Made by a program: the position numbers and the translations under genes
Shown here: positions 24,187 through 49,366 of the stretch, in pieces
Position numbering within the stretch: the first letter of the stretch is position 1
How the letters are laid out: each line of letters opens with the position of its first letter
Assembly (NCBI GenBank): GCA_017436345.1
Contig: JAFSDH010000009.1
Coordinates: 46,615 to 110,614 of the forward strand
Direction of reading: 5' to 3'
From: Bacilli bacterium
Lineage (GTDB): Bacteria; Bacillota_I; Bacilli_A; RF39; UBA660
DNA length: 64,000 bases
Notes under the pieces: generated by a model
The model's input: only the letters and a program-made list of their open reading frames with translations
Told to the model about the DNA's origin: nothing
Database searches by the model: none

Positions 24187-27100
24187 ATGAGTTTAATCAA
24201 GAAAATGAAACAAGAAGCTTTTAATTCTTTGAAGAAGTTATGTGGTGATATTAATCCAGAGAGAAATTTGAGTGATGTTATAAAAGAGTTACTTGATGGA
24301 GATATGTATAATGTTATTGAAAAGTTAGATAAAAAAGAAGATGTCTCTATTGATGATTTTTATAGTTTAGTTTCTAGTTATTTTAATACGTTAGATTTTT
24401 GTCATGATAATATAGATGATGAAAGATTACAAAAAGTTCGAGATGATATTAGTAATTTTATAACTTATATAGATAGTCTTAATTTAAGTAGTGAATATAA
24501 TGGAGTTTTGATTCATGATTTTTTTGAACGTTTATCAGCTTATTCTTTTGAAGGAAGTAAAGGAATATATGATTTGTTAATGATAGATGAAATTAGGAAT
24601 AGTAAGATAATGAGATCTTTTTTAGAAGATAATAATTTAACTGGTATTTCTAATTTTGCAAAAATATTTTATGATTTTTATGTTAATTTAACAGAAGAAC
24701 AACAAGATAAAGTGGATTATATATTTTATAGTAGTTCAGAATCTTTAGAATATTTTATGGAATGTCCCGATGAAATAGAGATTTATTTTAATGAAAATAT
24801 TCTTAATAATTTTAATAAAGAGAGTCTTAGTTTATTGTTTAGATCTTCTTCTTATGTAGCTTATAGTGATTTTTTTAAAGCAGATCCTAAATTTTTAAAA
24901 ATGATTGCGGCAATGAATGAATATGTTTTAGAAACAACTGATCATAATTCTTATTTTTTAGATCGAGTAGTAGAAGTCTTTGATAGTAGACAGTATTCTT
25001 TAAAAAGTGTTTATATAAAGTTATTTATGGAATATTATGATAAATATTTTGAACTTTCTAAAATAAATGGATTTGAAAATGATGAGTTATTTCAAAATCT
25101 ATTATCTTTTTCTTTAAGTGAAGATACTTTAGGTTTTATTAATGATAAATGTATTTTTGATTTAGAAGATTTTTTTAAAGCTAAAAGAGATTATTTAACT
25201 AATTTATATGGCAATGCTTATGGAAAAGAACATATTTTAAATATTAAATATGGTTTATTTGATTTAGATAAGGATTTAATTGAATATGAAAATAATTTTG
25301 CTTTACGTAGACTTAAAAAAGCCTTTTTTTACCGAGTATATGGAATTACTATGGAAGAAGCATCACATATAAAAAGTAGATATGGGGAATTTTTGAAAGT
25401 ATGTGAAGATAAGTTTTTAGATGAGGATAAAGATACTTTAGAAGTACTTAAGACAATATGTGATGTTTATGATTTAAGTGTTACTAGTGATAAGGATAAA
25501 TTTAAAATTAAAGAATTACAAAAGAGGTTTTATTTATATATAAAAGAAAATGGTTTATATAGTATAAATAAAAATGCTTCTTTTATGATGCTTAGGTCAT
25601 TAATAGATAAGATGTATATGAAAGCATATAATAAAGTTTTATATGAGCCTAAATTAGATAATGTTTTATATTATCAAAGAAATGTTCCTGTTGTAGATGC
25701 GGGATTAGATTTTAATATGATTGTTACTTCCATTAATGGAGTAGGAGATTTCTTTAGAAAAAATGAGAATGCTAAAAATAGATATAATGGTTCAGATAAT
25801 TCTTCAAATCAAGGGATTTGTGCATCTTTTATAAATAATGAAAATCTTGGAGTTATTGCATTAAATGGACCACTTCTTGCGTTTACTAATTTAAATGATA
25901 CTTCTTTAAACGCGATGGGGATAGGTGATATTTATTCTGAGACTAATGCGATTAATTTAAAGGCATCTAATACAACATTACATGAAGGGAATTATTTTTT
26001 AACGCCACATGAATATGCAGATAATACAAGATTTGGATATAATGAAATGGTTTTAGATAGATTCTTATTTAAAGATGATGATAATATTATTAAAGTTCAA
26101 CCTAGTTATGTTGTGTGTTATAAAATAGATGAAAACTATAAAAATACCAGAATGTATAAGAGAAGTTTAAGGTTTGCTCAAGAGTTTGGAATTCCGCTTG
26201 TATTAGTTGATGTAAAGAAAGTAAAAGAGCATGAACGAGATGAGATTTTATCAATGGAAAGAGAATTATTTAGTAGTGATAAAGTTAATAAAGAATTAAT
26301 GCAAGAGGTTTTAACTAGATATATGAATAATTATAGTGGTTCTTTAACAATAGTTAGAACAAGGGGAAGAAGATGGAACAATTGGAATTATAAAAGAGAT
26401 TTTTCTATTTTAGGAATGGATAAGTTTTTAAAAAAAGCTCATCGTAAGATAGAAGAATTTGAAAATGATATAGATAATGTATATGAATGGTATGATGCTT
26501 TAAAAGAGTGCTATTTAGTTGAAAAAAGAAGAAATGAATATGCTCATGAAGTATCTAGTTATGCTAGTTCGTTAGAACCTGGAGAGTTTGTTCTTGATGA
26601 TAAGATGGAATATATGGATAGAGTAAATTCTTTTACTAGAAGAACTATAGATAGGTATTATATGAGAAATAATTTAATTGATGGAGAAAGAATATCTTAT
26701 AATCCTAGACTTGAACCAATCCCAGAGATAGATGTAATAGTTGGACTTTCAAACTATTTATTTGAGCATGCTTATGTTAAGATGGAAGATAGTAGTGGAG
26801 AAAGAATTTATTTAACGAAAGCTGTTAGTGAGTTGAGTGATGAAGATAAGGCTGCATATGGTATTGTTATTTCGTATTTAATGGGGAATTTTAATGATAA
26901 TTATTTCTGTAATTTAGATAGCTGTGACTATGCGAAAATGGAATATAATCATTTTATGCCAGGAACATCTTTAATGGAAAGTTTGATGACTAGTGAGGTA
27001 TATAGTCCAGTTATAAATAGAACACCTTTGCTTGTAGAAGTTGCAAGTAAAGTTAATAATATGGATGAAGATGAATTTAGAAATATTTTTAAGCCTATAA

Positions 27101-27249
27101 TAAAAAGAATTGCTGATGAAAGAGATGTTACAGAGGATAGAGTCTTTAAAAAGATTTTGAAAAGGAAAAATACAATTGTTGAAGAAGTGTCTAAACTTCC
27201 GGTAGTTGACACTGTTAAGAAAACAGAAAACAATGTAAAGAAAAGGTAA
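24187..27249 (+). CDS. Large paralogue family member P1, unknown function
   Basis: 1020 aa; ATG 24187 after TAGGTGAT. No signal peptide or membrane helix; rich in Asp, Glu, Lys, Tyr and Phe. Residues ~1-490 are helical and align with the N-termini of P2-P6 (for example YGITMEEASHIKSRYGEF). A conserved core begins at VVDAGLDFNMIVTSINGVG (Asp504), contains QGICASFINNENLGVI, MGIGDIY, TRFGYNEMVLDRF (Glu620), VQPSYVV, FGIPLVLVD and ends with TRYMNNYSGSL (Met713); a helical tail of ~300 residues follows. P1 is the most divergent copy: where P2-P6 have (S/A)(S/V)KWNTA it has KNRYNGSDN. The GYNE/QPxY part resembles the last catalytic strand of PARP-like ADP-ribosyltransferases, an unproven similarity. 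An extended -10 TGATATACT lies at 24158-24166. Confidence 0.85.
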   Translation: MSLIKKMKQEAFNSLKKLCGDINPERNLSDVIKELLDGDMYNVIEKLDKKEDVSIDDFYSLVSSYFNTLDFCHDNIDDERLQKVRDDISNFITYIDSLNLSSEYNGVLIHDFFERLSAYSFEGSKGIYDLLMIDEIRNSKIMRSFLEDNNLTGISNFAKIFYDFYVNLTEEQQDKVDYIFYSSSESLEYFMECPDEIEIYFNENILNNFNKESLSLLFRSSSYVAYSDFFKADPKFLKMIAAMNEYVLETTDHNSYFLDRVVEVFDSRQYSLKSVYIKLFMEYYDKYFELSKINGFENDELFQNLLSFSLSEDTLGFINDKCIFDLEDFFKAKRDYLTNLYGNAYGKEHILNIKYGLFDLDKDLIEYENNFALRRLKKAFFYRVYGITMEEASHIKSRYGEFLKVCEDKFLDEDKDTLEVLKTICDVYDLSVTSDKDKFKIKELQKRFYLYIKENGLYSINKNASFMMLRSLIDKMYMKAYNKVLYEPKLDNVLYYQRNVPVVDAGLDFNMIVTSINGVGDFFRKNENAKNRYNGSDNSSNQGICASFINNENLGVIALNGPLLAFTNLNDTSLNAMGIGDIYSETNAINLKASNTTLHEGNYFLTPHEYADNTRFGYNEMVLDRFLFKDDDNIIKVQPSYVVCYKIDENYKNTRMYKRSLRFAQEFGIPLVLVDVKKVKEHERDEILSMERELFSSDKVNKELMQEVLTRYMNNYSGSLTIVRTRGRRWNNWNYKRDFSILGMDKFLKKAHRKIEEFENDIDNVYEWYDALKECYLVEKRRNEYAHEVSSYASSLEPGEFVLDDKMEYMDRVNSFTRRTIDRYYMRNNLIDGERISYNPRLEPIPEIDVIVGLSNYLFEHAYVKMEDSSGERIYLTKAVSELSDEDKAAYGIVISYLMGNFNDNYFCNLDSCDYAKMEYNHFMPGTSLMESLMTSEVYSPVINRTPLLVEVASKVNNMDEDEFRNIFKPIIKRIADERDVTEDRVFKKILKRKNTIVEEVSKLPVVDTVKKTENNVKKR

Positions 27250-27274
27250 AGTTTTTGTAAATTTTACTTTTTTT
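27246..27274 (+). terminator. Intrinsic terminator of P1
   Basis: Nine-pair A/T-rich stem starting GTAAAG and ending TTTTAC around the stop codon, followed by seven T. Confidence 0.65.
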
Positions 27275-27316
27275 ATTAGATATTTGATAAAATAAAATAT
27301 ATGGTAGGTGAAATTT

Positions 27317-28126
27317 ATGGATATAGAAAATAGCAAGTTAAAAAAAGTTAATATGGGTGGTACAGGTACGATGTACACCCTTCAAGGAAATGATGGTAAG
27401 GAATATATATATAAACCGGCAGTTTCCAAGTTTAGTGGAAATGTTGAACCTTTTAGAGGGATTGTTCAAGAGTGTGCATATGAAGTACAAAGAATAGTTG
27501 ATCCATCGTCAGCTGTTATTTGTAAATATGTAGATGCTGGAAGTTTACAAGGTTCTGTTCAAGAACTTGTTTCGACTATTGATAATGGAAGAGATTATCA
27601 TGCTATGCAATATGATGAAAGTATTCCTTTTACTCAGGAAGAAATTAATCAATTTATGAGAGAATTTGTTACTGATTATTTATTATGTAATTTTGATTCT
27701 CATGGAAGAAATTTTATAACTGATGAAAATGGTATTATTAGAGGTGTTGATAAGGAACAATCCTTTAGATATTTAAGAGATCCAGCTAGTGAAAAACCAG
27801 ATATTACTTATCATCCAAATAGAAAATATGGAGAAACAGAACCGATTTATAATACTTTGTTTAGAAGATATTCTGAAGGTAAGATTGATATTGATTGGGA
27901 TGTTATTAGTGGATATATGGATAGGGTTGATGCTGTTGATAATGATAGATATCGTAGTATGTTTGTTCCTTATTGTGAAAGTTGTGGTCAAGCTTTTGGG
28001 ACAGATCCAAATATGATGCTTGATAAGATTACTGCTAGAAAAGTAAATATTCGTACTAATATTGAAACATTTTTTCAAAATCTATCGGAAGTAAGAGAAG
28101 AAAATCTTGCTAGAGGAAAAAAATAG
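27317..28126 (+). CDS. HipA/PI3-4-kinase-fold protein kinase-like protein
   Basis: 269 aa; ATG 27317 after TAGGTGAA. A Gly-rich loop (MGGTGTMYTLQG) and Lys33 (EYIYKP) form an ATP site. The catalytic segment is NFDSHGRNF (Asp127, His129, Asn132) followed by GVDKEQSF (Asp145), the D-x-H-x2-N ... D arrangement of HipA and phosphatidylinositol-kinase-like enzymes, not of eukaryotic-type Ser/Thr kinases. All key residues are present, so it is probably active. There is no HipB-like antitoxin beside it and the N-terminal subdomain of HipA is missing, so I do not call it a HipA toxin. It sits inside the paralogue locus, two bases from the PHP gene, and may modify members of that system; this is inference. 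Confidence 0.75.
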   Translation: MDIENSKLKKVNMGGTGTMYTLQGNDGKEYIYKPAVSKFSGNVEPFRGIVQECAYEVQRIVDPSSAVICKYVDAGSLQGSVQELVSTIDNGRDYHAMQYDESIPFTQEEINQFMREFVTDYLLCNFDSHGRNFITDENGIIRGVDKEQSFRYLRDPASEKPDITYHPNRKYGETEPIYNTLFRRYSEGKIDIDWDVISGYMDRVDAVDNDRYRSMFVPYCESCGQAFGTDPNMMLDKITARKVNIRTNIETFFQNLSEVREENLARGKK

Positions 28127-28128
28127 AA

Positions 28129-29382
28129 ATGGATTATAGTAAAGAATATAATTATCATTCTCATACATTTAGATGTGGTCATGCAGCAAATGTTCCTGAT
28201 GGAGCATATATTTTAAAAGCTGTAGAATGTGGTTATAAAAAATATGGAGTTACTGATCATGTACCTGTTCATCCTATCTTTTTTGGTGATAGTTATGTAA
28301 GAATGCATGATAGTGATAGATACGATTATTATGATTCAATAGAGAAATTAAAAGAATTATATAAAGGTACGATTGATGTATATTTAGGATTTGAAGCTGA
28401 ATACGATGAGATAATTGATGCGTATTTGTGTGAATTAAGAGAAAATTGTGATTATATGATTATGGGACAACACTATGTTTTAAATAAGGATATTAGATAT
28501 AGTGTTGATTATCCAATTGAATATGCTAAGAAAGTATGTGCTGGTATTGAAAGTGGTATTTTTGATATTGTGGCACATCCTGATATTTTTATGCAATATA
28601 GAGATGGAATTCCAGAATCACAGCAAGAAGAATATTTTTATAAGGCTTTGGAAGCTTCGCGTATGATTTGTATGAAAGCTAAAGAATATAATATTCCTTT
28701 AGAAATTAATTTAGGTGCAACTCATGTATATGATAAGAAAGTTGCAGAATCGGGATTAAATGAGGAACAAATGGCAATTTTTAATGGTAAACATGCTAGG
28801 TATCCAACTAATTTATTTTGGGCTGTTGCTTGTCAAATTGGTAATTCAGCAGTTGTTGGAATAGATGCACATTATCCAGAAGAAATTAAGCAAAAACAAG
28901 CTAAATTAGCTAAGATAAATACATATATTGATTTATCAAAGTTAAATATTCTTGAAAATTATGATCCTGTTGTTGCAAGGGAAAATAATCCTAAATTACA
29001 AGAAGCTTTTGAAAGAACAAAAAGAAATGCTACTAGTGTAGAAGGTAGATTAGTTGAAAGCTATTTAAGTTATCTATTAGATGCTGAAAAAGTTAATAAG
29101 AATAAAGTTAAAACAGATTTGATTAGAACTTTAAGAGAATTACCTAATAATAGAAAATTTGCTAAGATAGATGATTTTGATGGTTATACAATGAAAAAAA
29201 GAGAAGCTCTTATAAAGGTAATAAAAGAAGGAACTCGTAAGATTTCTCCTGGTCCAATTGATGGGTTAAGTTATATTAAGGAATTGAAAGCTGCTATTGA
29301 TAAGCATTATTCAAGGTCAAGTATTATTGAACTTGATTATGAAGGTAATATAATTGGAGTAAAGAATAAGTTCAAGAAATAA
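28129..29382 (+). CDS. PHP-domain phosphoesterase (histidinol-phosphatase-like) with C-terminal extension
   Basis: 417 aa. Metal ligands of the PHP fold are visible in order: YHSHT (His10, His12) with CGH, TDHVP, GFEAEYDE, GQHYV, VAHPDIF and GIDAHYP, so a trinuclear metal centre is probably intact. Residues ~1-280 resemble HisK-type histidinol phosphatases, but no histidine pathway genes are near. A further ~130 residues (SVEGRLVESYLSYLLDAEK onward) are Lys-rich, partly helical and not part of that family. It is translationally linked to the kinase-like gene two bases upstream and is followed by a terminator. Substrate unknown; a phosphoesterase paired with a kinase suggests opposing or sequential chemistry. 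Confidence 0.82.
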   Translation: MDYSKEYNYHSHTFRCGHAANVPDGAYILKAVECGYKKYGVTDHVPVHPIFFGDSYVRMHDSDRYDYYDSIEKLKELYKGTIDVYLGFEAEYDEIIDAYLCELRENCDYMIMGQHYVLNKDIRYSVDYPIEYAKKVCAGIESGIFDIVAHPDIFMQYRDGIPESQQEEYFYKALEASRMICMKAKEYNIPLEINLGATHVYDKKVAESGLNEEQMAIFNGKHARYPTNLFWAVACQIGNSAVVGIDAHYPEEIKQKQAKLAKINTYIDLSKLNILENYDPVVARENNPKLQEAFERTKRNATSVEGRLVESYLSYLLDAEKVNKNKVKTDLIRTLRELPNNRKFAKIDDFDGYTMKKREALIKVIKEGTRKISPGPIDGLSYIKELKAAIDKHYSRSSIIELDYEGNIIGVKNKFKK

Positions 29383-29383
29383 T

Positions 29384-29410
29384 AAAAAAGATTATATATC
29401 TTTTTTATTT
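29384..29410 (+). terminator. Intrinsic terminator of the kinase-PHP pair
   Basis: AAAAAAGAT / ATCTTTTTT stem with a TATAT loop and T-rich tail. Confidence 0.75.
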
Positions 29411-29459
29411 TTTATATTTTTGTTAAAATAATATTAGAGTAAAATAGTGGGTGATTGAA

Positions 29460-30731
29460 ATGAGTAAGAAATTATTGTCGTTAACACTTAACGAACTTAT
29501 AAATGTTGAAATTGATGATGTTTTATTAATGATAGAAGATAATATTAAAGAAGTTCGTGGGTATGGAGATGATTATACTCGTTCTATTGCTATTGCTATT
29601 GTAAAAAGAGTTATGCTTATAAAGAATTTTTCTCATCAATATGAAAAGTTTTATCGTATTATTACTTCAGAAAAGTTTATGAATAATGAGGGAATAAAAT
29701 TAGTTTTAGATGAAGAAGAATTTATTTATTTAAAAGATTTATACGAAGTATATAGAGATTTAGATACAGCTAGTTTAATAGATTCTATCTTTTTAGAAAA
29801 TGAAAAATTATTTGATTTAATTGTTATTGATCAAAGTTTTTCAGTAAAAGATGTTTTCTCTAGTCGTATTTTAAATAGTTTTTATCAAGAGTCCTATAAG
29901 AAATTTTTATCTTATTTATTAAAAGATAATGATAAGAGTAGAGTTATAAATGCTTTATTTAAAAGTAAAAACAATAAGTTTTTATATATGGTATCTAAAA
30001 TGGATGATCTTGTTTTAAGTAAAGTTGAAGATGATAATGATTATTTTGATGCTGTTCTTACATTATTAAATTATAATAATTATCGTAAGTTATTATGGGA
30101 TTATTATAATAGATTTGTTGTTTCAGAAGAAAATGAAAAGATTCTTAATACGAAGTTTAAAGATGAAGTACCGGATGAGTTAAATGATTTACTTTGTTAT
30201 ACATTTAATTTAATGAGTGTTATTTATGCTAATGATACAATTCCAGATATTATTTCTAATATTGATGATTTAACTAAATCATTTAATTTAGGTAAAGAAA
30301 TGGTACATATTGCGGTATTTGGTGTTGAAGGTTATAAGAAGTTTAAAGATAATACTTTTGATGTTATGTTAGATTTTCCTAAGATGGATAATGAAAACCA
30401 ATTATTAAATTTAAAGATTGCTTTTTTTAGTACAATATATGGATTAACTTATAATCAAGCTGAAAAGTTAATTGAAAGTTTTGATGATTTTATGAAAAAT
30501 TTTAGGGGAACATTTAATAATAAGGAAAATTTGGTATATGAAACTATTATAGCGATGAAGTCTTTATATAATCTTAAATTAGAAGATAAAGAAGAAATTG
30601 ATTTATATAGAGAAGTTTATTATAAATATGTTAAGAAAAATGGTATTTATGCTTCAACAGAAGTAGAAGCATTAGTAATCATGGAAAGCTTAATGCGTAG
30701 AATGTATAATAATTCTATAGAGTTATTATAA
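29460..30731 (+). CDS. Stand-alone N-terminal half of the large paralogue family (half-P)
   Basis: 423 aa from ATG 29460 after GTGGGTGAT. It aligns over its whole length with the helical N-terminal ~475 residues of P1-P6: LSLTLNELINVEIDDVLLMI at the start, VFGVEGYKKFKDN, FFSTIYGLTYNQAEKLIESF, and EALVIMESLMRRMYNN at the end, matching the LEGLFNRMYMNTYN stretch of P6. It stops about 15-20 residues before the conserved core begins. The frame is clean, with its own RBS, and no remnant of the core is found downstream, so it looks like a natural truncated form rather than a recent pseudogene. It might compete with, or scaffold, the full-length members. It is followed by the small protein and the DraG-like gene. 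Confidence 0.75.
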   Translation: MSKKLLSLTLNELINVEIDDVLLMIEDNIKEVRGYGDDYTRSIAIAIVKRVMLIKNFSHQYEKFYRIITSEKFMNNEGIKLVLDEEEFIYLKDLYEVYRDLDTASLIDSIFLENEKLFDLIVIDQSFSVKDVFSSRILNSFYQESYKKFLSYLLKDNDKSRVINALFKSKNNKFLYMVSKMDDLVLSKVEDDNDYFDAVLTLLNYNNYRKLLWDYYNRFVVSEENEKILNTKFKDEVPDELNDLLCYTFNLMSVIYANDTIPDIISNIDDLTKSFNLGKEMVHIAVFGVEGYKKFKDNTFDVMLDFPKMDNENQLLNLKIAFFSTIYGLTYNQAEKLIESFDDFMKNFRGTFNNKENLVYETIIAMKSLYNLKLEDKEEIDLYREVYYKYVKKNGIYASTEVEALVIMESLMRRMYNNSIELL

Positions 30732-30766
30732 TAATTTGTGTTAAAATGTAATTGAGGTGATGTTAG

Positions 30767-30982
30767 ATGTTATCAGCTGATGATGTTAGAAAAGCAATTG
30801 AAGAGGCAAAGAAAAATCCAAATGGAGTTGAAACTGATAAAAGTTTTGAATCAAAACGTGAAGAAGCTATGAAAAGTTATTTAGATGATGTTAGTTCTGT
30901 TTCACAATTTATTAATGAGGAGTTTGCCAAGATTGATGCTAAGACTTTAACTAAGAAAGATGGTAGTATTAATGGACGTTAA
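30767..30982 (+). CDS. Small paralogue-associated protein A
   Basis: 71 aa, RBS GAGGTGAT five bases before ATG 30767. Highly charged, predicted helical, no cysteine or membrane segment. The central stretch FESKREEAMKSYLDDV and SQFINEEFAKI is shared with the 69-aa protein at 49157-49366 (FDLKREEAMKSYLADV, SQYINEGFAEI). Both copies lie directly behind a member of the large family, here behind half-P, there behind P6. This repeated arrangement suggests a binding partner, inhibitor or chaperone for the family. It overlaps the DraG-like gene by 11 bases, so those two are co-translated. Confidence 0.75.
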   Translation: MLSADDVRKAIEEAKKNPNGVETDKSFESKREEAMKSYLDDVSSVSQFINEEFAKIDAKTLTKKDGSINGR

Positions 30983-31937
30983 AGATGGAATTATAGGTCT
31001 TGCTGTTGCTGATGCTTTAGGTGTTCCTGTTGAATTTAAAAGTAGAGAAGTACTTAAGTTAAAACCAGTTACGGATATGATTGGTAATGGTACATATAAT
31101 CAACCGGAAGGAACTTGGAGTGATGATACATCAATGGTTTTAGCAACACTAGATGGAGTTATAGAGTCTGGGAGACTTGATTATGAACAAATAGCAACTA
31201 ATTTTTGTTTATGGGCTAGTGGTAAGAAATATAATGCTCATGATAAATTATTTGATATTGGAATTACGACTCATAAGTCTCTTCAAAATTATGTAACAAC
31301 AGGTGTTGAAGCTACTAAAGCAGGATGTAATGGTATATATGATAATGGTAATGGTTCTTTAATGCGTATTTTACCAATTGCTTATTATTTTAAAGAAAAT
31401 CCATGTAATGATTATGAGATGGCTGATATTATTGATGATTTATCATCAATTACGCATAGACATGAAATTAGTTGTATGGCTTGTTATTTATATACAAAAT
31501 ATGCTTTATCACTTCTTGATGGTAAGGATTTTAAAGAAGCATATGAAGATTTAAAAAGAGTTGATACAACAATGTATTCAAAGGCTACAACTAATAATTT
31601 TAAAAGAATTTTAAGTGGAGAAATTGCTACTATTGAAAATGAAAAGGATATTAGTTCTAGCGGTTTCGTTGTTTCGTCTTTAGAAGCTGCTTTATGGTGT
31701 TGTTTAAAAACAAATAATTATGAAGAAGCAACTTTAAAAGCTGTTAATTTAGGTGAAGATACTGATACAGTTGCTGCTATTGCAGGTGGATTGTGTGGTA
31801 TAAGATATGGTATTGATAATATTCCATCTAAATGGCAAGAAAAGTTAGTAAAAAGAGATTATATTATTTCTTTAGCTGATAGGTATCAAAATACTATTAA
31901 AACTATGTCTAAAGATGTTAAGGAATTATATAAATAA
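30972..31937 (+). CDS. ADP-ribosylglycohydrolase (DraG family)
   Basis: 321 aa; ATG 30972 gives the usual short family N-terminus (DGIIGLAVADALGVPVEF); ATG 30960 is an alternative. The dinuclear Mg/Mn site motifs are intact: TWSDDTSM (Asp51, Asp52) and GEDTDTVAAIAGGLCGI (Glu262, Asp263, Asp265), with NGNGSLMRILP between them. The family removes ADP-ribose from arginine, or handles related ADP-ribosyl compounds. It overlaps small protein A and follows half-P. Its presence inside the large-paralogue locus is the main contextual argument that the locus may deal with ADP-ribose. An independent housekeeping hydrolase is the alternative. Confidence 0.9.
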   Translation: MDVKDGIIGLAVADALGVPVEFKSREVLKLKPVTDMIGNGTYNQPEGTWSDDTSMVLATLDGVIESGRLDYEQIATNFCLWASGKKYNAHDKLFDIGITTHKSLQNYVTTGVEATKAGCNGIYDNGNGSLMRILPIAYYFKENPCNDYEMADIIDDLSSITHRHEISCMACYLYTKYALSLLDGKDFKEAYEDLKRVDTTMYSKATTNNFKRILSGEIATIENEKDISSSGFVVSSLEAALWCCLKTNNYEEATLKAVNLGEDTDTVAAIAGGLCGIRYGIDNIPSKWQEKLVKRDYIISLADRYQNTIKTMSKDVKELYK

Positions 31938-31964
31938 AAGAAAAACTTAGGTTTTTCTTTTTTT
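31936..31964 (+). terminator. Intrinsic terminator of the half-P/DraG unit
   Basis: AAAAGAAAAAC / GTTTTTCTTTT stem, TTAG loop, T tract; overlaps the stop codon. Confidence 0.8.
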
Positions 31965-31984
31965 GTTAATTTATGTAAAAATAG

Positions 31985-38500: not shown

Positions 38501-38854
38501 GTAAATTATAATGGTCAAAAAGATATAAAACTTAATTCTAAGTCAAGCTTTAATTTTAGTACGCAGGTATTAAATTCTCCTTTAAAAGAATATTTGTTAA
38601 GTAAAGAGTTTAATTGGGATAAGGTAGATAAGCTTATTTCAAATATTGAGAATATGAAAGATTCTGCATTAATAACACCATTTATTTCTTTAGCGAATAA
38701 AAAAGCTAATGGAGATTTTGGGAAGATGTTTGATATTATAGATAATATAACTTATAAGCAAAAGAAGATTGCTAAAGATTTTGGAAAGTTAAGGTCTAGT
38801 ATTAAAGCTTCAACTGATGAAATAAATAATAGTGATAGTGGAAAGAAACTTTAA
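35540..38854 (+). CDS. Large paralogue family member P3, unknown function
   Basis: 1104 aa from ATG 35540 after AAGGTG; an earlier in-frame start at 35480 lies in the terminator. Same layout as P2: helical N-terminal half (NELVGMPLVMVKKKLRYAVE, IYGISLKQAEYIKEFYGKY, LNSLDESKLP), core from LDAGVEFDMLVSSIGAVG (Asp566) with VKWNTATGSGCQGLCTSH, MGTSDIY, TRYGYNELLIDRF (Glu683), LQPSYIVYYK, IPVMLVD and RYMNNYVGA (Met775). This copy reads SVKWNTATG, so the KWNTA element is kept. The tail is distinct and lacks the IRENF ending. An extended -10 (TGATATACT) is at 35503-35511, without the TTTTAT -35 seen for P2, P4 and P5. Confidence 0.85.
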   Translation: MEQDSFVDSLKVLNDNINIYNNYSIDKENIPKYLKMIENEKSEEYIEYLKFIDPILADEYFSSLNYNSEQIEEGPFLDDNGKDFLDCSFNELVGMPLVMVKKKLRYAVEALEDVSVNERNQTLQKLISKVLSFQSIDTSFSYRSYDKDEQRFYADLISAPGFLNNPMVKEFLKNDFRAVNITETKKYKLLLRIMDYYEKHDDETIDKFNYIFKSSDLVSVYLTANENVDLDEMFPKDFLSLFSKDDLAFLYRFNFNYSGSFEIKNFTNPDNRKAVFVLAQFSKKLNQCIGANHEYLDAMKNVLRESSGIVPLLNSYYDYVGVSEDSFFDTIDFNDNLGTAELISFILESGSLYGFKYKGSSSIVDFFDRIDNDRKYNHEVVLGKGCVEKICYGVYEQSDIPTKEEYTNDELKKFKKAFLKNIYGISLKQAEYIKEFYGKYLDEFYKGLPVKDESVSVEEYLNSLDESKLPFKKEDYGSLQVLTSICNICELSNSDVNLIDKINVLQIAYLRQMQEKGVLSKSKYVSFPVLESALNNLYMNSFSKRLMSVTDSKKIIGFHDNVILLDAGVEFDMLVSSIGAVGKVFDSNVNMSVKWNTATGSGCQGLCTSHISSQNLGVFTIASPILGFQELDGVSLNMMGTSDIYSYTDEATLRSENPATLKKNRTFVPGNIMADETRYGYNELLIDRFLNNDDDDNKLQPSYIVYYKFDDNYKDDFRFKNSVKMAQDFNIPVMLVDVYKIKDYERQQINQMKEELFSSDRVDKQLMTKIITRYMNNYVGAANFVGYFKSYKAKNQFYEVNSGGKFENKYPVDFSLDDMDIFFNDVLGRINTIGDKDNANEWIVALEEAYFDEQRKYHESQRVSPESYSIRNFVLDDLKLDEKILKTKKDVERKFVDDTLEQSNESMDDSTKSDEVVTLGPEMTISSKAAYLLIEAINQNSIIDMKKDSQNNYLLSLKDVTNDEIIANSLVLSYFFENTDNLLLMDLVNYNGQKDIKLNSKSSFNFSTQVLNSPLKEYLLSKEFNWDKVDKLISNIENMKDSALITPFISLANKKANGDFGKMFDIIDNITYKQKKIAKDFGKLRSSIKASTDEINNSDSGKKL

Positions 38855-41900: not shown

Positions 41901-42278
41901 CCGATTAGTTTTGTATATCGAGGAGTAGCTAAGTCAGCGGGAATGGATATTAAGTTAAATGATGATGAAAATTTTGATTTAATAAGTGGTTATAGTGGTT
42001 CTTTTTATGAAAAAGTTAAAATTAAACCTAAACCTGAAAAGATTGATAAAGTTGTTTCTAAAATAGAAGCATTAGATGATAAATCTTTTTTACAAATTTT
42101 TAGACCACTTATTGAAAAGAAAGCTATGATGAGTGGTAATTCATTTGAAGAAATATCATCGACTTTGTTAGATAGAAAAAAATCTATTAGAGAAAATTTT
42201 GAAAAATTTGAAAAGCTTATTAATTCTCCTAAAGGAGATAGTAATGAAAAAAAAGATGAAACAGGAAAAAATATATAA
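38949..42278 (+). CDS. Large paralogue family member P4, unknown function
   Basis: 1109 aa from ATG 38949 (the in-frame ATA-preceded region from 38910 overlaps the promoter). N-terminus MNFIDSIKKKL is like that of P5 (MNFLDNLKSKL). Shared helical half includes GDEQRFYAEL-like segment EDEQRFYAELISTPGFL, LYGITLADGEYFSMAYAQH and LASLDESKM. Core: LDAGVEFDMIVTSLNGVG (Asp577), MASKWNTASLSSKHGICTSY, MGTSDIW, TRYGYNEILVDRF (Glu693), LQPDYIMYFK, FGIPLKIVD, RYMNNYTGSL (Met786). Tail ends RKKSIRENFEKFEKL. P4 and P5 look like the closest pair in the set. No signal peptide. Unknown function. Confidence 0.85.
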   Translation: MNFIDSIKKKLIVSKLSFDILKNGFGLTKKGKSGTVDLEEINAFNEEGEEVTEVLDESIDKETEEVKTLPNYEPTLSKGIFAGLQGVFYTPVPLLSKKTILDKSMSDLLDMGVDEVRNILMNEINALERVKSKVRNEQLQKIFTALFRFQTLKENSRKFGEDEQRFYAELISTPGFLTNPYVRKFLKEEYFSSNYSEEKKARLLEKISDFYESHSKEEIEKFNYVFMVSDDVASYLLDNDVNLDEVFSRDFLSKFDKEDLSLIYRFHLGNMAFKELIKPENEKVLFLVSAMTKQVKSITGHSAEFIDSVFRFIEDSNFTKLLNSYYDEAIKDKSNHDSFLQVISNTNCLHDFVNYMIRSHYELESSYYYVSPFSGMSSWKDFVDVISNERKANHQMILGDDFLKLFSQQHEGELPKLKLDEKGLIRFKEAILSNLYGITLADGEYFSMAYAQHLSELLKGIPPRNGMSDSEYLASLDESKMTIKKEDFVALQLLQAIDSVVKINIDDPKLEEKVEVLQRAYLKQLKAKGIDYKSPYASFAIVEGILNNMYINTYNKKLTPASKGELIEISDGIRILDAGVEFDMIVTSLNGVGSFFDGKVNMASKWNTASLSSKHGICTSYINAQNIGVINLTAPFLVFSDIPSSSLDAMGTSDIWTGISSFNLRMAHRAGDNNRRFVPGTIMADETRYGYNEILVDRFLSKSEDGNFKLQPDYIMYFKCGSDYRKDPLYKGSLQMAKDFGIPLKIVDVLKVKEHEKSVIDEMREELFRSDVVNSELMQDIVTRYMNNYTGSLVFVGSGKYDEDFSVEGMRTFFNEVYSKISSLEDKKQAREWIDALEKSYLEEERRFREARSTGGYSYSVGSTFILDTYDVSGKIGDLKSNLPKEIILDEIEFSDDIRLAYLTDGSKATIVPDSKLSPGMKTLLDFKKTFEIVDNLFYEPVYDSNSDKISHVIQINEPKSENVEEFILESLVFSYFTGSMAEYPISFVYRGVAKSAGMDIKLNDDENFDLISGYSGSFYEKVKIKPKPEKIDKVVSKIEALDDKSFLQIFRPLIEKKAMMSGNSFEEISSTLLDRKKSIRENFEKFEKLINSPKGDSNEKKDETGKNI

Positions 42279-42298
42279 TATATTTTTTCTTTTTTTGT
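42265..42298 (+). terminator. Intrinsic terminator of P4
   Basis: Near-palindromic GAAAAAATATAT / ATATATTTTTTC stem across the stop codon followed by T residues; all-A/T stem, so probably weak. Confidence 0.55.
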
Positions 42299-42317
42299 TA
42301 AATCTTTGTAAAAGTAA

Positions 42318-42346
42318 TTTTATTTATTCTTTATATTTGGTACAAT
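42318..42346 (+). promoter_or_regulatory. Shared-type promoter upstream of P5-P6
   Basis: TTTTAT (42318-42323), 17 bp, extended -10 TGGTACAAT (-10 at 42341-42346), preceded by TTTGTAAAA. Confidence 0.55.
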
Positions 42347-42374
42347 CATATTATAGAGAATAGGCAGTGATAGA

Positions 42375-45300
42375 ATGAATTTTTTGGATAATTTAAAAAG
42401 TAAATTGAAGATGAGTTCTGGTTTTCTTTCAAGTTTAACTGGAAAAGGGAATTTTAGTTTAGTTAAGGATTCCAAGATGGCTTCCATTGTTGAACCAGAT
42501 GAGCTTAGTTCAAGTTTAGCTAGTTTAGAATCAGAGTTAAGTCTTGATGAATTAGATAGAGTAATTGCGGGAGTTTCTGATATTGATGTAGCAGTTGAAA
42601 GTAGCCAAGTAGTAGCTTCTGCACCTGATTTAGAAGATACTTTAGAACTATTTCCTAAGGATTGGATTTTTCCTGATAAAAAAGAAGCTGAAGAAATACC
42701 ACCGGTAGTTGAATCACATTCTTCAGATGATGATTTTTGGAAAGAGTTAGAAGATTTAGTAGGAAGATGGGAAAAGGCTGAACAAAAGAGTGAATTAAGT
42801 GAACCTGATTTTGGAACTGATTTTTCTTCTAAAGCTGAAGATGATATTATTCCTATTGATTCAGAAATAACTGAACTAGGTAAAAATACTAATGATGATA
42901 AGCATAAAGAAAGTTCTCATTTTTTTAAAAAGGCTGGTGATTTACCTGATTTTGAACCTAAATTATCTCCAAATTTGAGTAATAGTGCACAAGCTTCTTT
43001 TATAACTCCAGAACCAGTTAAAGCTGGACCATCATTCTTAGATCAAAAATTTGTTGAATTAGTTGGTATGGATATTGAAGTAGTTAGAAGTGCTGTTTTA
43101 GCAGAAATAAAAGAATTAGAAACTGCTGATAGTGAATATCGAAAAGTTCAATTGCAAAAAATCTTTTCTAAATTATTAAGTTATCAACCAATGTCAGAAT
43201 ATGGTCGTAATTATAGTGAAGATGAACAAAGATTTTATGCTGATATCATTTCTACACCTGGTTTGATTACTGAGCCTTATGTTGTATCTTTTTTAAAAAA
43301 TGATTTTTATTCAATGCATAATCAGGATGAGGTTAAGAAAAATCTTTTAATAAAGGTCTCTGATTATTATGCGACTCATTCGCAAGAGGCAATTGACAAG
43401 TTTAATTATGTCTTTAGAAGTACAGATTATGTTTCTACTTTCTTTCTAGATAATCCAGATGTACCACTTGATAGGTTCTTTTCTGAAAGAACAATGTCGA
43501 TGTTTGATAAAGAAGATTTAAGTTTATTATATAGATTTTATTTAAATAGTAATTATTATGATAATTTAGATCAATTATTTTTACCAGAAAAAGATAAAGC
43601 TTTATTTATGATGTCTATTCTAAATAAAAAAGTAAAACAGTTAACTGGACATAGTGTTGAATTCTTAGAGTGTGCGATGATGCTTATGAATTCTGAAAAC
43701 AGAAGTATTGTTCCTATTTTAGAAAGTTTTTATGATAAATTGATTTTTGATAAATCAGAAGAAAAAGTAGCTGGAGATGTTATTCTTAGTCTTGATAATA
43801 TTGCTGGTGTAAAAGAATTAATTAATTTTATAGTTGAAAGTAAATATAATAGAGGTAGACATCCTCTTAGAGGATTTGATACTTATGATGAATTTGTTTT
43901 AGAAGCTGAAAATATACGTAATAGACAACATGCGATTATACTAGGTGATAGTGGTGTTGAAAAAGCTAGAATGAATTTATTTAAACCAGAAGATTTTCCA
44001 AAATCATCAAGTTTTGATTATGATATGCGTGATGACTTTGTTGCAGCTTTTTTAGAAAATGTATATGGTATTTCTCTAAAATCTGCTCAGTATTTTGCAA
44101 CTCATTATGGTAAACATTTAAAAGGGCTTGAAGCGGGTATTCCACCAAGACCTGAGGGAATGAGTGATGAGGAGTACTTAGCTAGTTTAGATGAGAGTAA
44201 AATGGCTATAATGAAAAAGGATTTACCAGCTTTACAAATGCTTAAAGCAATATGTAGTTTGGTTGAACTTGATTTTTCTAGTCCTGATTTTGCTGATAAA
44301 TTAAGAGTATTACAAACAGCTTATTTAACTGAAATGCAAAGAAAGGGATTTGATTATCAAAATCCATATGCATCGTTTGCGATTGTTGAAGGTGCACTTA
44401 ATAATATGTATATGAATTCATATAATAAATTACTTACTAGTAGTAAGGATGCAAAAGGGGTAATTAGAGTAGATGATGGTGTTGAATTGTTAGATGCTGG
44501 TGTTGAATTTAATATGTTAGTTACTTCGTTAGGGGGAGTAAGTAACATATTTGATGATAGTGTTGATATGGCAAGTAAATGGAATACGGCATCAATGAGT
44601 CGAGGGCAAGGAATCTGTTCAACACATATTAGCGCTCAAAATATGGGTGTTATTGATTTGAGTGCTCCAATACTTGGATTTGCAAATGTTCCAGAATATT
44701 CTTTGGATATGATGGGAACTAGTGATATTTGGACAGATATTACGGCTATGAATTTACGTAGAGAAAATAAAGCTTCGCCTAATAAAAATAGATTTTTTGT
44801 TCCAGGTAATATGATGTCTGACGAATGTCGTTATGGATATAATGAAATTTTAATAGATAGATTTGCAGCTTCTGGTCCTAATGGTGAACTTAAGTTGCAA
44901 CCAGAATATTTAATTTATTTTAAATTTGATGAACAACATGAAAATGATCCATACTATCGTATGGCACATAAAACCGCTAAAGATTTTGGAGTACCAATTA
45001 TGGTTGTTGACGTTCCTAAGATTAAAGAACATGAACGAAGTGTTATTGATGGTATGAGAGATGAGTTGTTTAGTAATGATACTGTTAATCCGGATTTAGT
45101 ACATGATATTTTGACAAGATATATGAATAATTATACTGGATCACTTACTTTTGTTGGTAAAGGATTAGTATATGAAGATTTTTCTGTTGATGCGATGAGA
45201 ACTTTTGTTAATGATATTTTTAATAAAGCTGTGGAACTTGGTGAAACAGAAGAAGCTAAGGCTTGGATTGATGCTTTAGATAGTGTTTATCAAGAAGAAA

Positions 45301-46118
45301 AACGTAAGTATGATGAAGCTATTGGTGCTGGTGGTTATAAATACTCTGTTGTTAGTTTCGTATTAGAAAAATACGATATTGAAGGTAAAATTAGTCGTTA
45401 TCGTAGTGGCGATATCTATGATCCTGATAAGACAGAAGAAATAACACAACCTCTACCAAAAGTTAATTCTGGATTTGAAGAGAAAGTTCTTGATGATTCA
45501 ACAAAAGTAGTAATTATTCCTGATGAAAAGTATGATCCGGCGTTGAAGAGTTGTATTGATTTTATTACTGCTATGGAAATTGGATCTAAAGTAACGTATT
45601 TGAGTGAATTTAATGGTGCAACAGGTGAAATTACTCATTTGATAGATGTTGAAGAACCTGAAGATAAACAATTATTTGTTATTGAAAATTTAGTTATGTC
45701 ATATTTTTATGAAAATTTAGAAAGTCCAATTACTAATGATATTATTTGGAATGATTGTGATGTAGATCTTCCATTTGCTGCATCAAATGATTTTGATTTT
45801 AATGCAAGTATTTTTGAATCTCCTTTTAAAGAAGTTGTCCTTGAAGGTGAAGGGGACTATGCATTTAATTTTGAAAAAGTGGATCAATATGTTAGTAAGA
45901 TTGAGTCAATGAGTAGTCAAGAGTTCTTACACATATTTACACCAGTAATTATGAAAAAATCAAAAGAAACTGGTATTCCTTTTGAAGATATTTCAAGTAG
46001 AATGTTGGATAAAAAGGATACTATAAGAGAAAAGTTTGAACTTTTACAAAAACAAATAGATGTAGCTAAAACTGGGGGAGACCCAATGGATGTTATTGAT
46101 GATAGTAAAAAAGTATAG
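42375..46118 (+). CDS. Large paralogue family member P5, unknown function
   Basis: 1247 aa, the longest member. After MNFLDNLKSKL comes a member-specific acidic, Ser/Pro-containing, probably disordered stretch (about residues 30-215) that explains the extra length. The shared helical half contains EDEQRFYADIISTPG, VYGISLKSAQYFATHYGKH and LASLDESKM. Core: LDAGVEFNMLVTSLGGVS (Asp707), MASKWNTASMSRGQGICSTH, MGTSDIW, CRYGYNEILIDRF (Glu824), LQPEYLIYFK, FGVPIMVVD and RYMNNYTGSL (Met917). Tail ends KKDTIREKFELLQ. P6 starts eight bases after the stop with no terminator, so P5-P6-small protein B form one operon. Function unknown. Confidence 0.85.
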   Translation: MNFLDNLKSKLKMSSGFLSSLTGKGNFSLVKDSKMASIVEPDELSSSLASLESELSLDELDRVIAGVSDIDVAVESSQVVASAPDLEDTLELFPKDWIFPDKKEAEEIPPVVESHSSDDDFWKELEDLVGRWEKAEQKSELSEPDFGTDFSSKAEDDIIPIDSEITELGKNTNDDKHKESSHFFKKAGDLPDFEPKLSPNLSNSAQASFITPEPVKAGPSFLDQKFVELVGMDIEVVRSAVLAEIKELETADSEYRKVQLQKIFSKLLSYQPMSEYGRNYSEDEQRFYADIISTPGLITEPYVVSFLKNDFYSMHNQDEVKKNLLIKVSDYYATHSQEAIDKFNYVFRSTDYVSTFFLDNPDVPLDRFFSERTMSMFDKEDLSLLYRFYLNSNYYDNLDQLFLPEKDKALFMMSILNKKVKQLTGHSVEFLECAMMLMNSENRSIVPILESFYDKLIFDKSEEKVAGDVILSLDNIAGVKELINFIVESKYNRGRHPLRGFDTYDEFVLEAENIRNRQHAIILGDSGVEKARMNLFKPEDFPKSSSFDYDMRDDFVAAFLENVYGISLKSAQYFATHYGKHLKGLEAGIPPRPEGMSDEEYLASLDESKMAIMKKDLPALQMLKAICSLVELDFSSPDFADKLRVLQTAYLTEMQRKGFDYQNPYASFAIVEGALNNMYMNSYNKLLTSSKDAKGVIRVDDGVELLDAGVEFNMLVTSLGGVSNIFDDSVDMASKWNTASMSRGQGICSTHISAQNMGVIDLSAPILGFANVPEYSLDMMGTSDIWTDITAMNLRRENKASPNKNRFFVPGNMMSDECRYGYNEILIDRFAASGPNGELKLQPEYLIYFKFDEQHENDPYYRMAHKTAKDFGVPIMVVDVPKIKEHERSVIDGMRDELFSNDTVNPDLVHDILTRYMNNYTGSLTFVGKGLVYEDFSVDAMRTFVNDIFNKAVELGETEEAKAWIDALDSVYQEEKRKYDEAIGAGGYKYSVVSFVLEKYDIEGKISRYRSGDIYDPDKTEEITQPLPKVNSGFEEKVLDDSTKVVIIPDEKYDPALKSCIDFITAMEIGSKVTYLSEFNGATGEITHLIDVEEPEDKQLFVIENLVMSYFYENLESPITNDIIWNDCDVDLPFAASNDFDFNASIFESPFKEVVLEGEGDYAFNFEKVDQYVSKIESMSSQEFLHIFTPVIMKKSKETGIPFEDISSRMLDKKDTIREKFELLQKQIDVAKTGGDPMDVIDDSKKV

Positions 46119-46126
46119 GTGATAAT

Positions 46127-49100
46127 ATGAAAGAAGAGAAAGAAGAAGTTTTAAGTAAGGGATTTATTCCATATATGGCCAAAGTATTTCCTTTTTTGAA
46201 TGATAATTTTTTATCTAAAAATATTAATAAATTAGAAAGTTTATCATTAGATGAAGTTAGAAATTTATTATTAAGTGAAATAACTAGTGCTAAGGAATTA
46301 ACTCCTAGTAATTGTAACAATCAACTACAAAAGATTTTTGATAAGCTTTTTTCTCTTCAACCTGCTTTTAATACCAATAAAAGAGAAAGAGAAATGCGTG
46401 ATACTGAACAAAGGTTATACGCTGATTTAGTATCTACTCCTGGTTTTTTAGATGATCCAGTAGTACGTGATTTTTTACTTAATAATTATCATCCTAATTC
46501 TAAAAATGATTTTAAGTATATATGTTTAACACAAATTTTAGAAATGTATTCTAAATTAGATGAAGAATCTATTGAAAAATTTAATTATTGTTTTAGAAGT
46601 AGTAGTGTTTTTGCGAAGTCTTTAATGTATGATGATAGGATGTTTAATAAAGTTTTAAATGATCGAACTTTGTCGATGTTTAATAAAGAAACTTTTTCAC
46701 AATTATTTAGGTTTTTTGATGAAAATTACAGTACTAAATTTGTTGAAAGATATATAGTTAATGGGGATGAAAAGTCTTTATTTGTAATATCACAAATGTG
46801 TGAACACATATATAATCAAGTAGGGCATACTTCAGAATTTATGTATGCGATATTTTCGCTTGATAGATGGGATGAAAATGCCAATTCAAATTTTCGAAAT
46901 GTTTTAATTGATTTTTATGATAAAGTTATTGTTGATAAAGAGAATGAACAATCTTTTAGAGAAGCTATAAAAGATGGAATGTCTTTTGAAATGCGTGAGA
47001 TTGTTAATGCTATTTTGGATTATTCATATAGCTATGATTATCGAAATCCTTTTAATGGTATAAATACATTGGATGAATTTATGGATAAGGTGCTTGCTAA
47101 AAGAAAAGAAAATCATATTAATATTTTTGGTAGTGAAGGTTTTCGTAAATTTGAAGATGGTATTTTTGAAGCTAAGGATTTTAAAAAGATTGAAACACAA
47201 GAAGATTTTATTAAATTTAAAAATGCTTTTTTATCTAATATATATGGGATAAGTTCTAGGGAAGCTGAATTTATAACGTCAAGATATGGACATAATTTAG
47301 AGGCTTTAGCTAGTAGTGTTGAAGAAGATGATGTAGAGTCTTTATGTGTATTAAGATCAATTGTATCTATTAATAATTTAACAATTGAAGATAAAGAGAA
47401 ACTTAGTATTTTGCAAAATCTTTATTATAATTATATGGATAATCATGGTTTGAATTATCAAAAACAAGTTAATTCAATGTTAGTGTTGGAAGGCTTATTT
47501 AATCGTATGTATATGAATACATATAATAAGATTTTATTAAATGATTTATCAAAGAAAGATGTTTTATTTGTTGATGATGGTGTAGAGTTAATTGATGCAG
47601 GTGTTGATTTTAATATGATTGTAACTGCTCTTAATGGTACAACTAGTTTTTTTGATAAAGGTGTTAATATAGCTAGTAAGTGGAATACAGCTTTTAGAGA
47701 TATTAATCAAGGTTTATGTACTTCATTTATTAGTAATGATAATTTAGGGGTAATATCTTTAGATGGACCTGTTTTAGGATTTGCATCTTTACCTAGGGAT
47801 TGTTTAGATACAATGGGAACTACAGATATTTATACATATACTAATAATTTTAATTTACGTTTTAATAATCGAAAAAATACGCCTTTTTATGTAGGTAGTC
47901 AAATGTCTAATGAGACAAGATTTGGTTATAATGAAATGTTAATTGATAGATTTATTTCAGTTGATGAAGAAGATAAAGTTAAGCTTCAACCAGATTATAT
48001 AGTTTTTTATAAGACACAAGAAAATTATCGTATGTCTAAAAGATATGTAGAATCTTTGAAAACGGCAAAGGATTTTGGAATACCGATAGTAGTTGTTGAT
48101 TATCAAAAGATTCAAGCTCATGAAAAAGAAGTTTTAGTTTCGATGGAAGAAGAGTTGTTTAAAAGTGATGAGGTTGATGCTGAGCTTCTTGGTAATATAA
48201 TGATGCGTTATATGAATAATATTAGTGGTTCGAGAACGATTCATGGACATGTACGTTTAGGGGGACTAGGACTTGGTTATGATTATTTTCCAGAAGATGC
48301 TTTAGGTAATTTTATTTCACAAACACTTATGAAATGTGAAAATGTTGATGATAAGTATCGATTGGATTGGATCAATGCTTTACAAAGTGCCTATGATGAG
48401 GAACTTAGAAAACATATGGTAGCGATAGGTGTTAATTCTTATAATTGTTCATTAGGTAGTGATAATGATAGATTTAATTTAATTACTGATTATAATTTAG
48501 GAGAAAAATTACGTTTTCTTCAAGAAAGATATAATCCAACTAAGGTGGTTAAAGAAGATGAGTCTTTTAGAAAGGGAGATATATCTGCAGAAGAAGTTGT
48601 TTTAACGAATATTGCAAACACTTTAGGATTTAATACAACTTATTCGTTTGTTAAGATGTTAAATCATGATGAGGAAAAGGGATATGCAATTGTTCAACAT
48701 AATTCAAATTTAGATAAGACTAGTTTGGAAGAAAAAATAATTGTTGCTTATTTTACTGATAATTATCAAGAAGATTTATTGGAAAAGATGAATACAAGTA
48801 AACAAAAATTAGAATTTGGTACTTTAAGAGAAGTCTTATTTAAGAGAATGAATAAAGAAACATTATCTGATAGTTTAAAGGATTCATATTTAAAAGATGA
48901 GATAGGTTCTGGTAATTTTAATGTTGAAAAATTAAATTATTTTGTTTCGAAGATTGATGAGTTAGATGAGAAGAAGTTTTTAAGTGTATTTAGACCAATT
49001 ATATATAAGATTGCTGGAGACCAAGGTTATAGTTATGAATATATAGCAGATAAGTTTTTAGAAAAAAAAGCTAATATTGGTGGCCAAGTTAAAGAATTAA

Positions 49101-49147
49101 GTGATATACTAGTAAGTAGTAATGGTGATAGTACTAAGACTAGGTAG
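46127..49147 (+). CDS. Large paralogue family member P6, unknown function
   Basis: 1006 aa; RBS AGGTGAT at the end of P5. It lacks the long N-terminal extension and starts almost directly with the shared helical part (NINKLESLSLDEVRNLLLSE, IYGISSREAEFITSRYGHN). The loop with LDESKM seen in P2-P5 is missing. Core: IDAGVDFNMIVTALNGTT (Asp490), IASKWNTAFRDINQGLCTSF, MGTTDIYTYT, TRFGYNEMLIDRF (Glu603), LQPDYIVFYK, FGIPIVVVD, RYMNNISGS (Met696). C-terminal helical tail with KKFLSVFRPIIYKIA, a segment present in all members as (F/L)xx(I/V)F(R/K/T)P. It is followed nine bases later by small protein B. Function unknown. Confidence 0.85.
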   Translation: MKEEKEEVLSKGFIPYMAKVFPFLNDNFLSKNINKLESLSLDEVRNLLLSEITSAKELTPSNCNNQLQKIFDKLFSLQPAFNTNKREREMRDTEQRLYADLVSTPGFLDDPVVRDFLLNNYHPNSKNDFKYICLTQILEMYSKLDEESIEKFNYCFRSSSVFAKSLMYDDRMFNKVLNDRTLSMFNKETFSQLFRFFDENYSTKFVERYIVNGDEKSLFVISQMCEHIYNQVGHTSEFMYAIFSLDRWDENANSNFRNVLIDFYDKVIVDKENEQSFREAIKDGMSFEMREIVNAILDYSYSYDYRNPFNGINTLDEFMDKVLAKRKENHINIFGSEGFRKFEDGIFEAKDFKKIETQEDFIKFKNAFLSNIYGISSREAEFITSRYGHNLEALASSVEEDDVESLCVLRSIVSINNLTIEDKEKLSILQNLYYNYMDNHGLNYQKQVNSMLVLEGLFNRMYMNTYNKILLNDLSKKDVLFVDDGVELIDAGVDFNMIVTALNGTTSFFDKGVNIASKWNTAFRDINQGLCTSFISNDNLGVISLDGPVLGFASLPRDCLDTMGTTDIYTYTNNFNLRFNNRKNTPFYVGSQMSNETRFGYNEMLIDRFISVDEEDKVKLQPDYIVFYKTQENYRMSKRYVESLKTAKDFGIPIVVVDYQKIQAHEKEVLVSMEEELFKSDEVDAELLGNIMMRYMNNISGSRTIHGHVRLGGLGLGYDYFPEDALGNFISQTLMKCENVDDKYRLDWINALQSAYDEELRKHMVAIGVNSYNCSLGSDNDRFNLITDYNLGEKLRFLQERYNPTKVVKEDESFRKGDISAEEVVLTNIANTLGFNTTYSFVKMLNHDEEKGYAIVQHNSNLDKTSLEEKIIVAYFTDNYQEDLLEKMNTSKQKLEFGTLREVLFKRMNKETLSDSLKDSYLKDEIGSGNFNVEKLNYFVSKIDELDEKKFLSVFRPIIYKIAGDQGYSYEYIADKFLEKKANIGGQVKELSDILVSSNGDSTKTR

Positions 49148-49156
49148 GAGGTTTTT

Positions 49157-49366
49157 ATGAAAGCAGATGAATTAAGAGGGTTAATTGAGAAATATAAAAC
49201 AGAAAATAATGAAATTCCTATGGAAAAGATGAATTCAACAAATTTTGATTTGAAAAGAGAAGAAGCTATGAAAAGTTATTTAGCTGATGTTGGACCTATT
49301 TCTCAATATATAAATGAAGGTTTTGCTGAAATAGAAAAAGAAAAAACTGGTGGTATGGAAAAATAA
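49157..49366 (+). CDS. Small paralogue-associated protein B
   Basis: 69 aa with a strong RBS AGGAGG. Charged, predicted helical. Shares FDLKREEAMKSYLADV and SQYINEGFAEI with small protein A at 30767-30982, while the first ~30 residues differ. It closes the P5-P6 operon. The conserved block is nearly as well kept as in any pair of the large proteins, arguing that both copies are functional. Role unknown; a partner or regulator of the preceding family member is the simplest idea. Confidence 0.75.
   Translation: MKADELRGLIEKYKTENNEIPMEKMNSTNFDLKREEAMKSYLADVGPISQYINEGFAEIEKEKTGGMEK

Follow-up and report, generated by a model that had tools for sequence, protein, structure and literature searches.

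We have analysed a 64,000-nucleotide stretch from a Bacilli bacterium (contig JAFSDH010000009.1), called here the window, and in particular a run of genes at 24187-49366 that codes for six giant paralogous proteins, an N-terminal half of a further copy (half-P), two small proteins and a kinase-like, a PHP-domain and a DraG-family protein. We consider it rather probable that this locus is a reversible ADP-ribosylation cassette, in which the six giants, by means of a divergent ADP-ribosyltransferase (ART) core, are the writers and the one DraG-family protein is the eraser. The proposal builds on features that were observed directly, namely a common core with two invariant acidic residues, a kept order of the genes, the membership of the hydrolase in the DraG family and, in one database protein, a kinase-like domain fused to the core. 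The ART fold of the core is well supported by structure modelling, and its predicted activity as a transferase is likely. The initial annotation of this DNA had left the core without any function, an account that has to be amended, as the core looks ART-like by modelling.

The structural evidence comes from two predicted models of the core, which was modelled for the last giant (paralogue 7, 47444-48436). The closest solved structure was CteC (PDB 8ux2), the structural matches of the domain to solved ARTs ranked above unrelated rows, and for the second model all six best structural matches were ART folds. Foldseek against the PDB and against viral models gave no match with E ≤0.001. A profile search of PDB sequences with the core found no ART among the seven distinct sequences with an E-value of 10 or less (the best of them, a ribose-binding protein matched over 36 residues with E 0.09, was rejected as a short chance match), and hhalign found no match between the core and two database proteins, P0153 and P0193, that are described below.

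CteC is a ubiquitin-Thr66 mono-ADP-ribosyltransferase of Chromobacterium violaceum, and the core shares with it an Asp-Glu pair in place of the Glu/Gln-X-Glu motif. According to the structural report, D134 and E220 of CteC contact the nicotinamide ribose and the alanine mutants of both are inactive, as is R65A; for S97 no contact is apparent (PMC10810742). In a review, the Asp-Glu pair is called unique to CteC, and the features of this enzyme are described as chimeric between ART classes (PMC11281641). We mapped these sites onto the model by their order, strand position and spacing (R65 to 61, S97 to 94, D134 to 128 and E220 to 164), and the resulting spacings are 33, 34 and 36 residues, versus 32, 37 and 86 in CteC, where the last one contains a 38-residue insertion.

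Conservation at these positions was counted in a 34-row alignment of the core (A4), many rows of which are only ca. 20% identical, and then in 117 added database proteins (P0002-P0118), a few of them near-copies of window proteins. The acidic residues D128 and E164, the latter being the first residue of the central strand 164-168 in the model, are invariant in 34/34 rows and in 117/117 further proteins. Of 35 located core fragments, duplicates of rows already included and seven short, split or weak ones (L054, L055, L057, L059, L065, L067 and L068) were left out of the alignment; in these seven, D128 is kept in the six that reach it and E164 in all. A Tyr or His lies at the -2 position beside the site of the pair. 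The Ser expected in strand 2 of an ARTC-type enzyme is present as S94 (31 of 34 rows, 104 of the 117). Very different is the situation of the Arg that the ARTC class (R-S-E) carries in strand 1, since the expected position 61, equivalent to R65, is occupied by R in just one of the 34 rows (the others being T 13, H 13, S 3, N 3 and K 1) and in two of the 117 (T 61, H 40, S 11 and N 3). Two other conserved arginines might take its place, R159 (31/34 and 116/117) and R169 (32/34 and 115/117). At the level of sequence, the core retains the acidic pair of CteC but not its arginine. The QG[IL]C motif could have suggested a cysteine protease, a reading that was dropped because 6 of the 34 rows have another residue instead of the Cys and the fold is ART-like.

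The resemblance to CteC has clear limits. Identity is 11-12%, there is no conserved arginine at the R65 site, and the four helices that CteC inserts between strands 4 and 5 to recruit ubiquitin have no room in the core (36 residues from D128 to E164, versus 86 in CteC numbering). Besides, unlike in CteC, the core of the giants is placed inside proteins of ca. 1000 aa or larger, with a long N-terminal part before it and C-terminal helices behind.

The genes of the locus are as follows, all of them on the + strand.

24187..27249, +, giant paralogue 1, 1020 aa; ATG at 24187, core at ca. residues 467-782
27308..28126, +, kinase-like protein, 272 aa, with kinase-like residue order
28129..29382, +, PHP-domain protein, likely phosphoesterase, 417 aa; PF02811 E 3.3e-11, above the cut-off
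29451..30731, +, half-P, 426 aa, N-terminal part only and without core, from alignment to the giants
30767..30982, +, small protein 1, 71 aa; open reading frame (ORF) related to small protein 2
30960..31937, +, DraG-family ADP-ribosylglycohydrolase, 325 aa; PF03747 E 2.4e-71
32033..35467, +, giant paralogue 3, 1144 aa, from alignment and core profile
35540..38854, +, giant paralogue 4; ORF listed from TTG 35480, likely start ATG 35540
38949..42278, +, giant paralogue 5, 1109 aa; ORF listed from TTG 38910, likely start ATG 38949
42375..46118, +, giant paralogue 6, 1247 aa, from alignment and core profile
46127..49147, +, giant paralogue 7, 1006 aa; core 47444-48436 is the modelled part
47534..48109, +, predicted ART domain within paralogue 7 (residues 31-222 of the model), with S94 and the invariant D128 and E164
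49157..49366, +, small protein 2, 69 aa; relatives after the last giant in two other genomes

All the listed ORFs are present in this tightly packed run, which has yebC (23393-24112) at one end and an ABC exporter (49391-51175) at the other, and the gaps between adjacent ORFs measure -23 to 96 bases, so that one common transcript is plausible. Two ORFs listed from TTG codons (35480 and 38910) probably begin at the ATGs at 35540 and 38949 instead; the latter is preferred because the resulting protein begins like its neighbour and the database copy P0002 has the same length of 1109 aa. Upstream, yebC adjoins a Tad/Flp-type operon (TadE-like, ParA-like, T2SSE ATPase and T2SSF proteins, 18750-23380) that is retained in related genomes.

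The six giants and half-P align over the N-terminal part; identity to the 1247-aa copy is 45, 38, 37, 34 and 26% for the other giants and 18% for half-P. The core profile scores above 400 bits on each of the six full giants, of which at least three had been used to build it. The initial annotation had described large paralogues and half-P with a common N-terminal part, which it called helical, and in all but half-P a conserved core, and the alignment does show the motifs that it named; its count of seven copies has to be read as six full copies plus one N-terminal half, the family array itself being real. The relationship between the two small proteins, also noticed there, was seen again.

The putative eraser is the best identified member of the locus, with 241.2 bits to PF03747 versus a cut-off of 26.2, and contains WSDDT and DTDT, which we take to be meaningful motifs of the DraG family. 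Among the ADP-ribosylarginine hydrolases it matches the NCBIfam models of Tri1 (193 bits) and of dinitrogenase-reductase DRAG (132 bits), whose cut-offs of 490 and 337 bits lie far above these scores, so it is neither of the named enzymes. A second, different DraG-family gene of the same genome (L106, G000:C7:256875-257627, 103 bits) is found away from the giants. The HipA/PI-kinase fold proposed for the kinase-like protein fared less well. Its residue order is kinase-like, with a GGxG glycine-rich loop, K36, D130, N135 and D148 invariant in all five aligned rows, an order that we assume to be that of kinase-type residues, but HipA_C gave only 13.4 bits versus a cut-off of 30.5 (E 0.06) and, at E up to 1, matched two of four members. 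We keep the kinase name because of the residue order together with this weak match. Calpain fragments, matched by the kinase profile at E 0.4 and above, were rejected as chance.

The kinase-like domain was also found fused to other domains. In P0052 it is joined to the giant core (31% identity, 216 aligned columns, E 1e-25), in P0153 to the Pfam ADP-ribosyltransferase exoenzyme domain (25.1 bits, cut-off 23.4), and in P0173 and P0184 to HD domains. P0193, without a Pfam match, has RGT, STS and EHE stretches, recognised by eye, before the kinase-like domain; these are presumably ART motifs. The fusion of a kinase with a PlsX-like domain in P0178 was set aside as a possible chimaera. All these proteins come from metagenome-type sources and any single fusion may be an artefact; taken together they all point in the same direction. 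In P0053 the core lies behind a long unrelated N-terminus that looks toxin-like; no Pfam trafficking domain, as a polymorphic toxin would carry, was found in it.

A search of ca. 5.8 billion clustered proteins with the core of the 1247-aa copy retrieved 53 clusters, including the window's own, and a second search, in which the core of one of the genome's distant paralogues was the query, retrieved 65; the close family is therefore small, but it belongs to a wider superfamily. Members of the latter include P0077 and P0098, where the core is followed by an HD domain, and the two distant paralogues that the genome holds, adjacent to each other, away from the locus (L010:13245-17324, 1359 aa, and L011:4525-8187, 1220 aa), whose C-terminal part resembles by eye an HD domain without the catalytic HD pair, although Pfam detects no HD there. 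A match in G000:C20 (E 7.7e-4) is limited to 89 residues of the variable N-terminal part. That the family went unrecognised in the initial annotation agrees with the curated libraries tried, none of which has a record of it. No Pfam model was above its cut-off for the six giants or half-P, nor over the core in six superfamily members; ADPrib_exo_Tox and the other listed Pfam ART families gave no match for five giants at E 1 and for the sixth at 0.1. With half-P and four of the six giants as queries, NCBIfam, PHROGs and PADLOC returned chance-level rows or nothing, and PADLOC assigned no family to ten locus proteins, four of the six giants among them. No paper on such a locus was found by title or abstract among the open-licence literature, which is not a claim of absence from print.

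The distribution was examined in samples of 9 genomes of the genus, 386 of the family and 395 of the class. Close giants are present in four genomes of the genus (G000, G002, G004 and G005), and the kinase-like gene in the same four; the remaining five have neither, G008 containing only a distant giant relative. The constant co-occurrence looked for after the initial annotation thus holds for the kinase, and fails for the PHP and close DraG genes (three of the four genomes each) and for half-P, which is absent in G002 and present in six of the nine. An extra DraG gene (38% identity) is located elsewhere in the genome of G001. In the family sample the core was detected (E 1e-5 or better) in 46 of 386 genomes, counting that of the window, with bimodal scores of at least 474 bits, in this genus only, and at most 143 bits. 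Ten of the 395 genomes of the class sample matched, all ten from the window's family, the share of this sample lying outside the family not being given.

In three other genomes the same genes are 35-59% identical (33-39% for the small proteins) and in the same order where present, so that the array is more than chance and the neighbours of the giants are, as had been supposed, non-random. G004 has yebC, one ORF without match in the window, giant, kinase, PHP, half-P, DraG, giant, small protein and ABC exporter; G005 has yebC, giant, kinase, half-P, giant, small protein (47 aa) and a penicillin-binding protein; and G002 has yebC, giant, kinase, PHP, DraG and an unmatched ORF reaching the contig end. 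The three named relatives are metagenome-assembled genomes (MAGs), two of uncultured Bacilli bacterium (with isolate names containing Lapin) and one of Bacillota bacterium isolate SIG201. Four kinase clusters and several giant clusters list longest contigs of the same length (128167, 133645, 24342 and 13842 bases), which suggests that they may be co-located in other genomes too.

The initial annotation had also regarded the flanking genes as bounding one system, which the giant-free genomes do not support. Next to yebC, G006 and G007 have half-P and, behind it, other genes; G001 has half-P up to the contig end (another contig starts with the end of half-P and continues with the exporter), and G003 and G008 have other genes after yebC. 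The upstream TadE, ParA-like, T2SSE and T2SSF genes are present in all four readable giant-free genomes (G001, G006, G007 and G008), and the exporter, sought at E 1e-150, in three of the nine. The idea that the giants are part of the Tad operon or of the exporter was dropped, as those genes occur without giants. From these gene orders, the giants and enzymes look inserted on either side of half-P, with ordinary flanks.

That the copies arose by recent duplication is a view dropped on the evidence of a tree of 63 core sequences. In it the copy at 24187 and the first giants of three other genomes (G002, G004 and G005) form one group (support 100/100), and the copies at 46127, at 32033 and at 35540/38949/42375 fall on separate branches with metagenomic relatives. 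Some inner forks are unresolved, and the placement of P0052 and P0053, both on very long branches, is unsure. Judging from these deep lineages, the array looks old and differentiated rather than freshly amplified.

In the cassette that we propose, NAD+ would be bound by each core, in which D128 and E164 would grip the nicotinamide ribose in the way of D134 and E220 in CteC. The core would then transfer ADP-ribose to a target, the choice of which would lie with the variable N-terminal part, and the DraG enzyme would take the ADP-ribose off again. This target, or its tagged form, may also be what the kinase-like, PHP and small proteins act on, and half-P, lacking a core, might compete for or anchor the same partner. 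Our guess would be a role in conflict (defence or toxin-like) rather than in housekeeping, because the locus occurs patchily at a single site and has several paralogues of deep origin. More speculatively, this family of Bacilli might possess a new ADP-ribosylation signalling network: an ART branch with a CteC-like Asp-Glu site housed in giants, arrays of target-specific writers linked by operon and fusion to the DraG eraser, to the kinase-like domain and to HD/PHP phosphohydrolases that process the mark further, and a small protein as shared substrate or antidote. This broader picture is tentative and may well not hold. If the core is active, it would be a new ART branch escaping the sequence tools used, with the CteC-type acidic pair outside the effector where it was first described, a natural array of six writers and one eraser in a genome of ca. 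1.7 Mb, and a candidate function for the giant-protein superfamily found in the family sample.

Other systems provide partial parallels. DarT, a DNA ADP-ribosyltransferase, gave a lower structural score with the core than CteC did. Its partner is the hydrolase DarG, a macrodomain eraser, whereas here the eraser is of the DraG family and the giants are large and multi-copy. The SidE system of Legionella combines a transferase and a phosphodiesterase with hydrolase and kinase-fold partners, a similar set of activities around one ADP-ribosylating enzyme; the likeness is one of plan only.

There are several other possible explanations. Anti-phage defence would be a special case of the cassette, the N-terminal part sensing a phage product, the giant ADP-ribosylating an essential component and growth stopping as a result. 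The presence of close giants at one site in four of nine genomes would fit, as would the number of deep paralogues, whose N-terminal parts vary, but PADLOC had no match for the ten proteins given and the library scans named no mobile-element gene in the run, and we regard this version as unlikely. Quite unlikely, in our view, is that the giants are pseudo-enzymes or NAD+ sensors that keep the ART fold but have lost transferase activity and serve as scaffolds. The variable residues at the R65-equivalent site in the 34 rows and the retention of half-P, a copy without any core, would be expected in that case; an acidic pair that stays invariant throughout such divergent rows and in all the further proteins, and a DraG-family eraser within the same gene run, would not.

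Alternatively, the giants could be effectors that are exported and modify some protein of an animal host by ADP-ribosylation, in the manner of CteC and ubiquitin. CteC is indeed the nearest solved structure, two of the three named relatives carry the French word for rabbit in their isolate names, and a large Cna_B-repeat protein lies downstream. However, no signal peptide was seen by eye in the likely gene products (no prediction tool was used), and this reading is weakened because the space between D128 and E164 is insufficient for the ubiquitin-recruiting insertion of CteC and because the eraser in the same run speaks for an intracellular target; we judge it very unlikely. The most improbable of all would be proteins unrelated to ADP-ribosylation with a DraG gene next to them by chance, as could be argued from the Foldseek and sequence searches without significant match and the negative hhalign comparisons, but hardly reconciled with six ART folds as the best matches of the second model or with the network of fusions to ART and HD domains. 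We maintain the cassette of writers and eraser as the preferred explanation.

Several neighbouring genes outside the run can be mentioned. The downstream protein with repeats (53314-60129) is adhesin-like, 2271 aa long, and combines a von Willebrand A domain with 18 Cna_B stretches. Before it, at 51993-53074, two adjacent proteins have a common C-terminal stretch of the type NVYLPxNSPEYAQIDEELLxYMI. Finally, a protein at 10164-11786 has cohesin-like and cadherin-like domains, and weakly similar proteins are found near yebC in G008 and G003.
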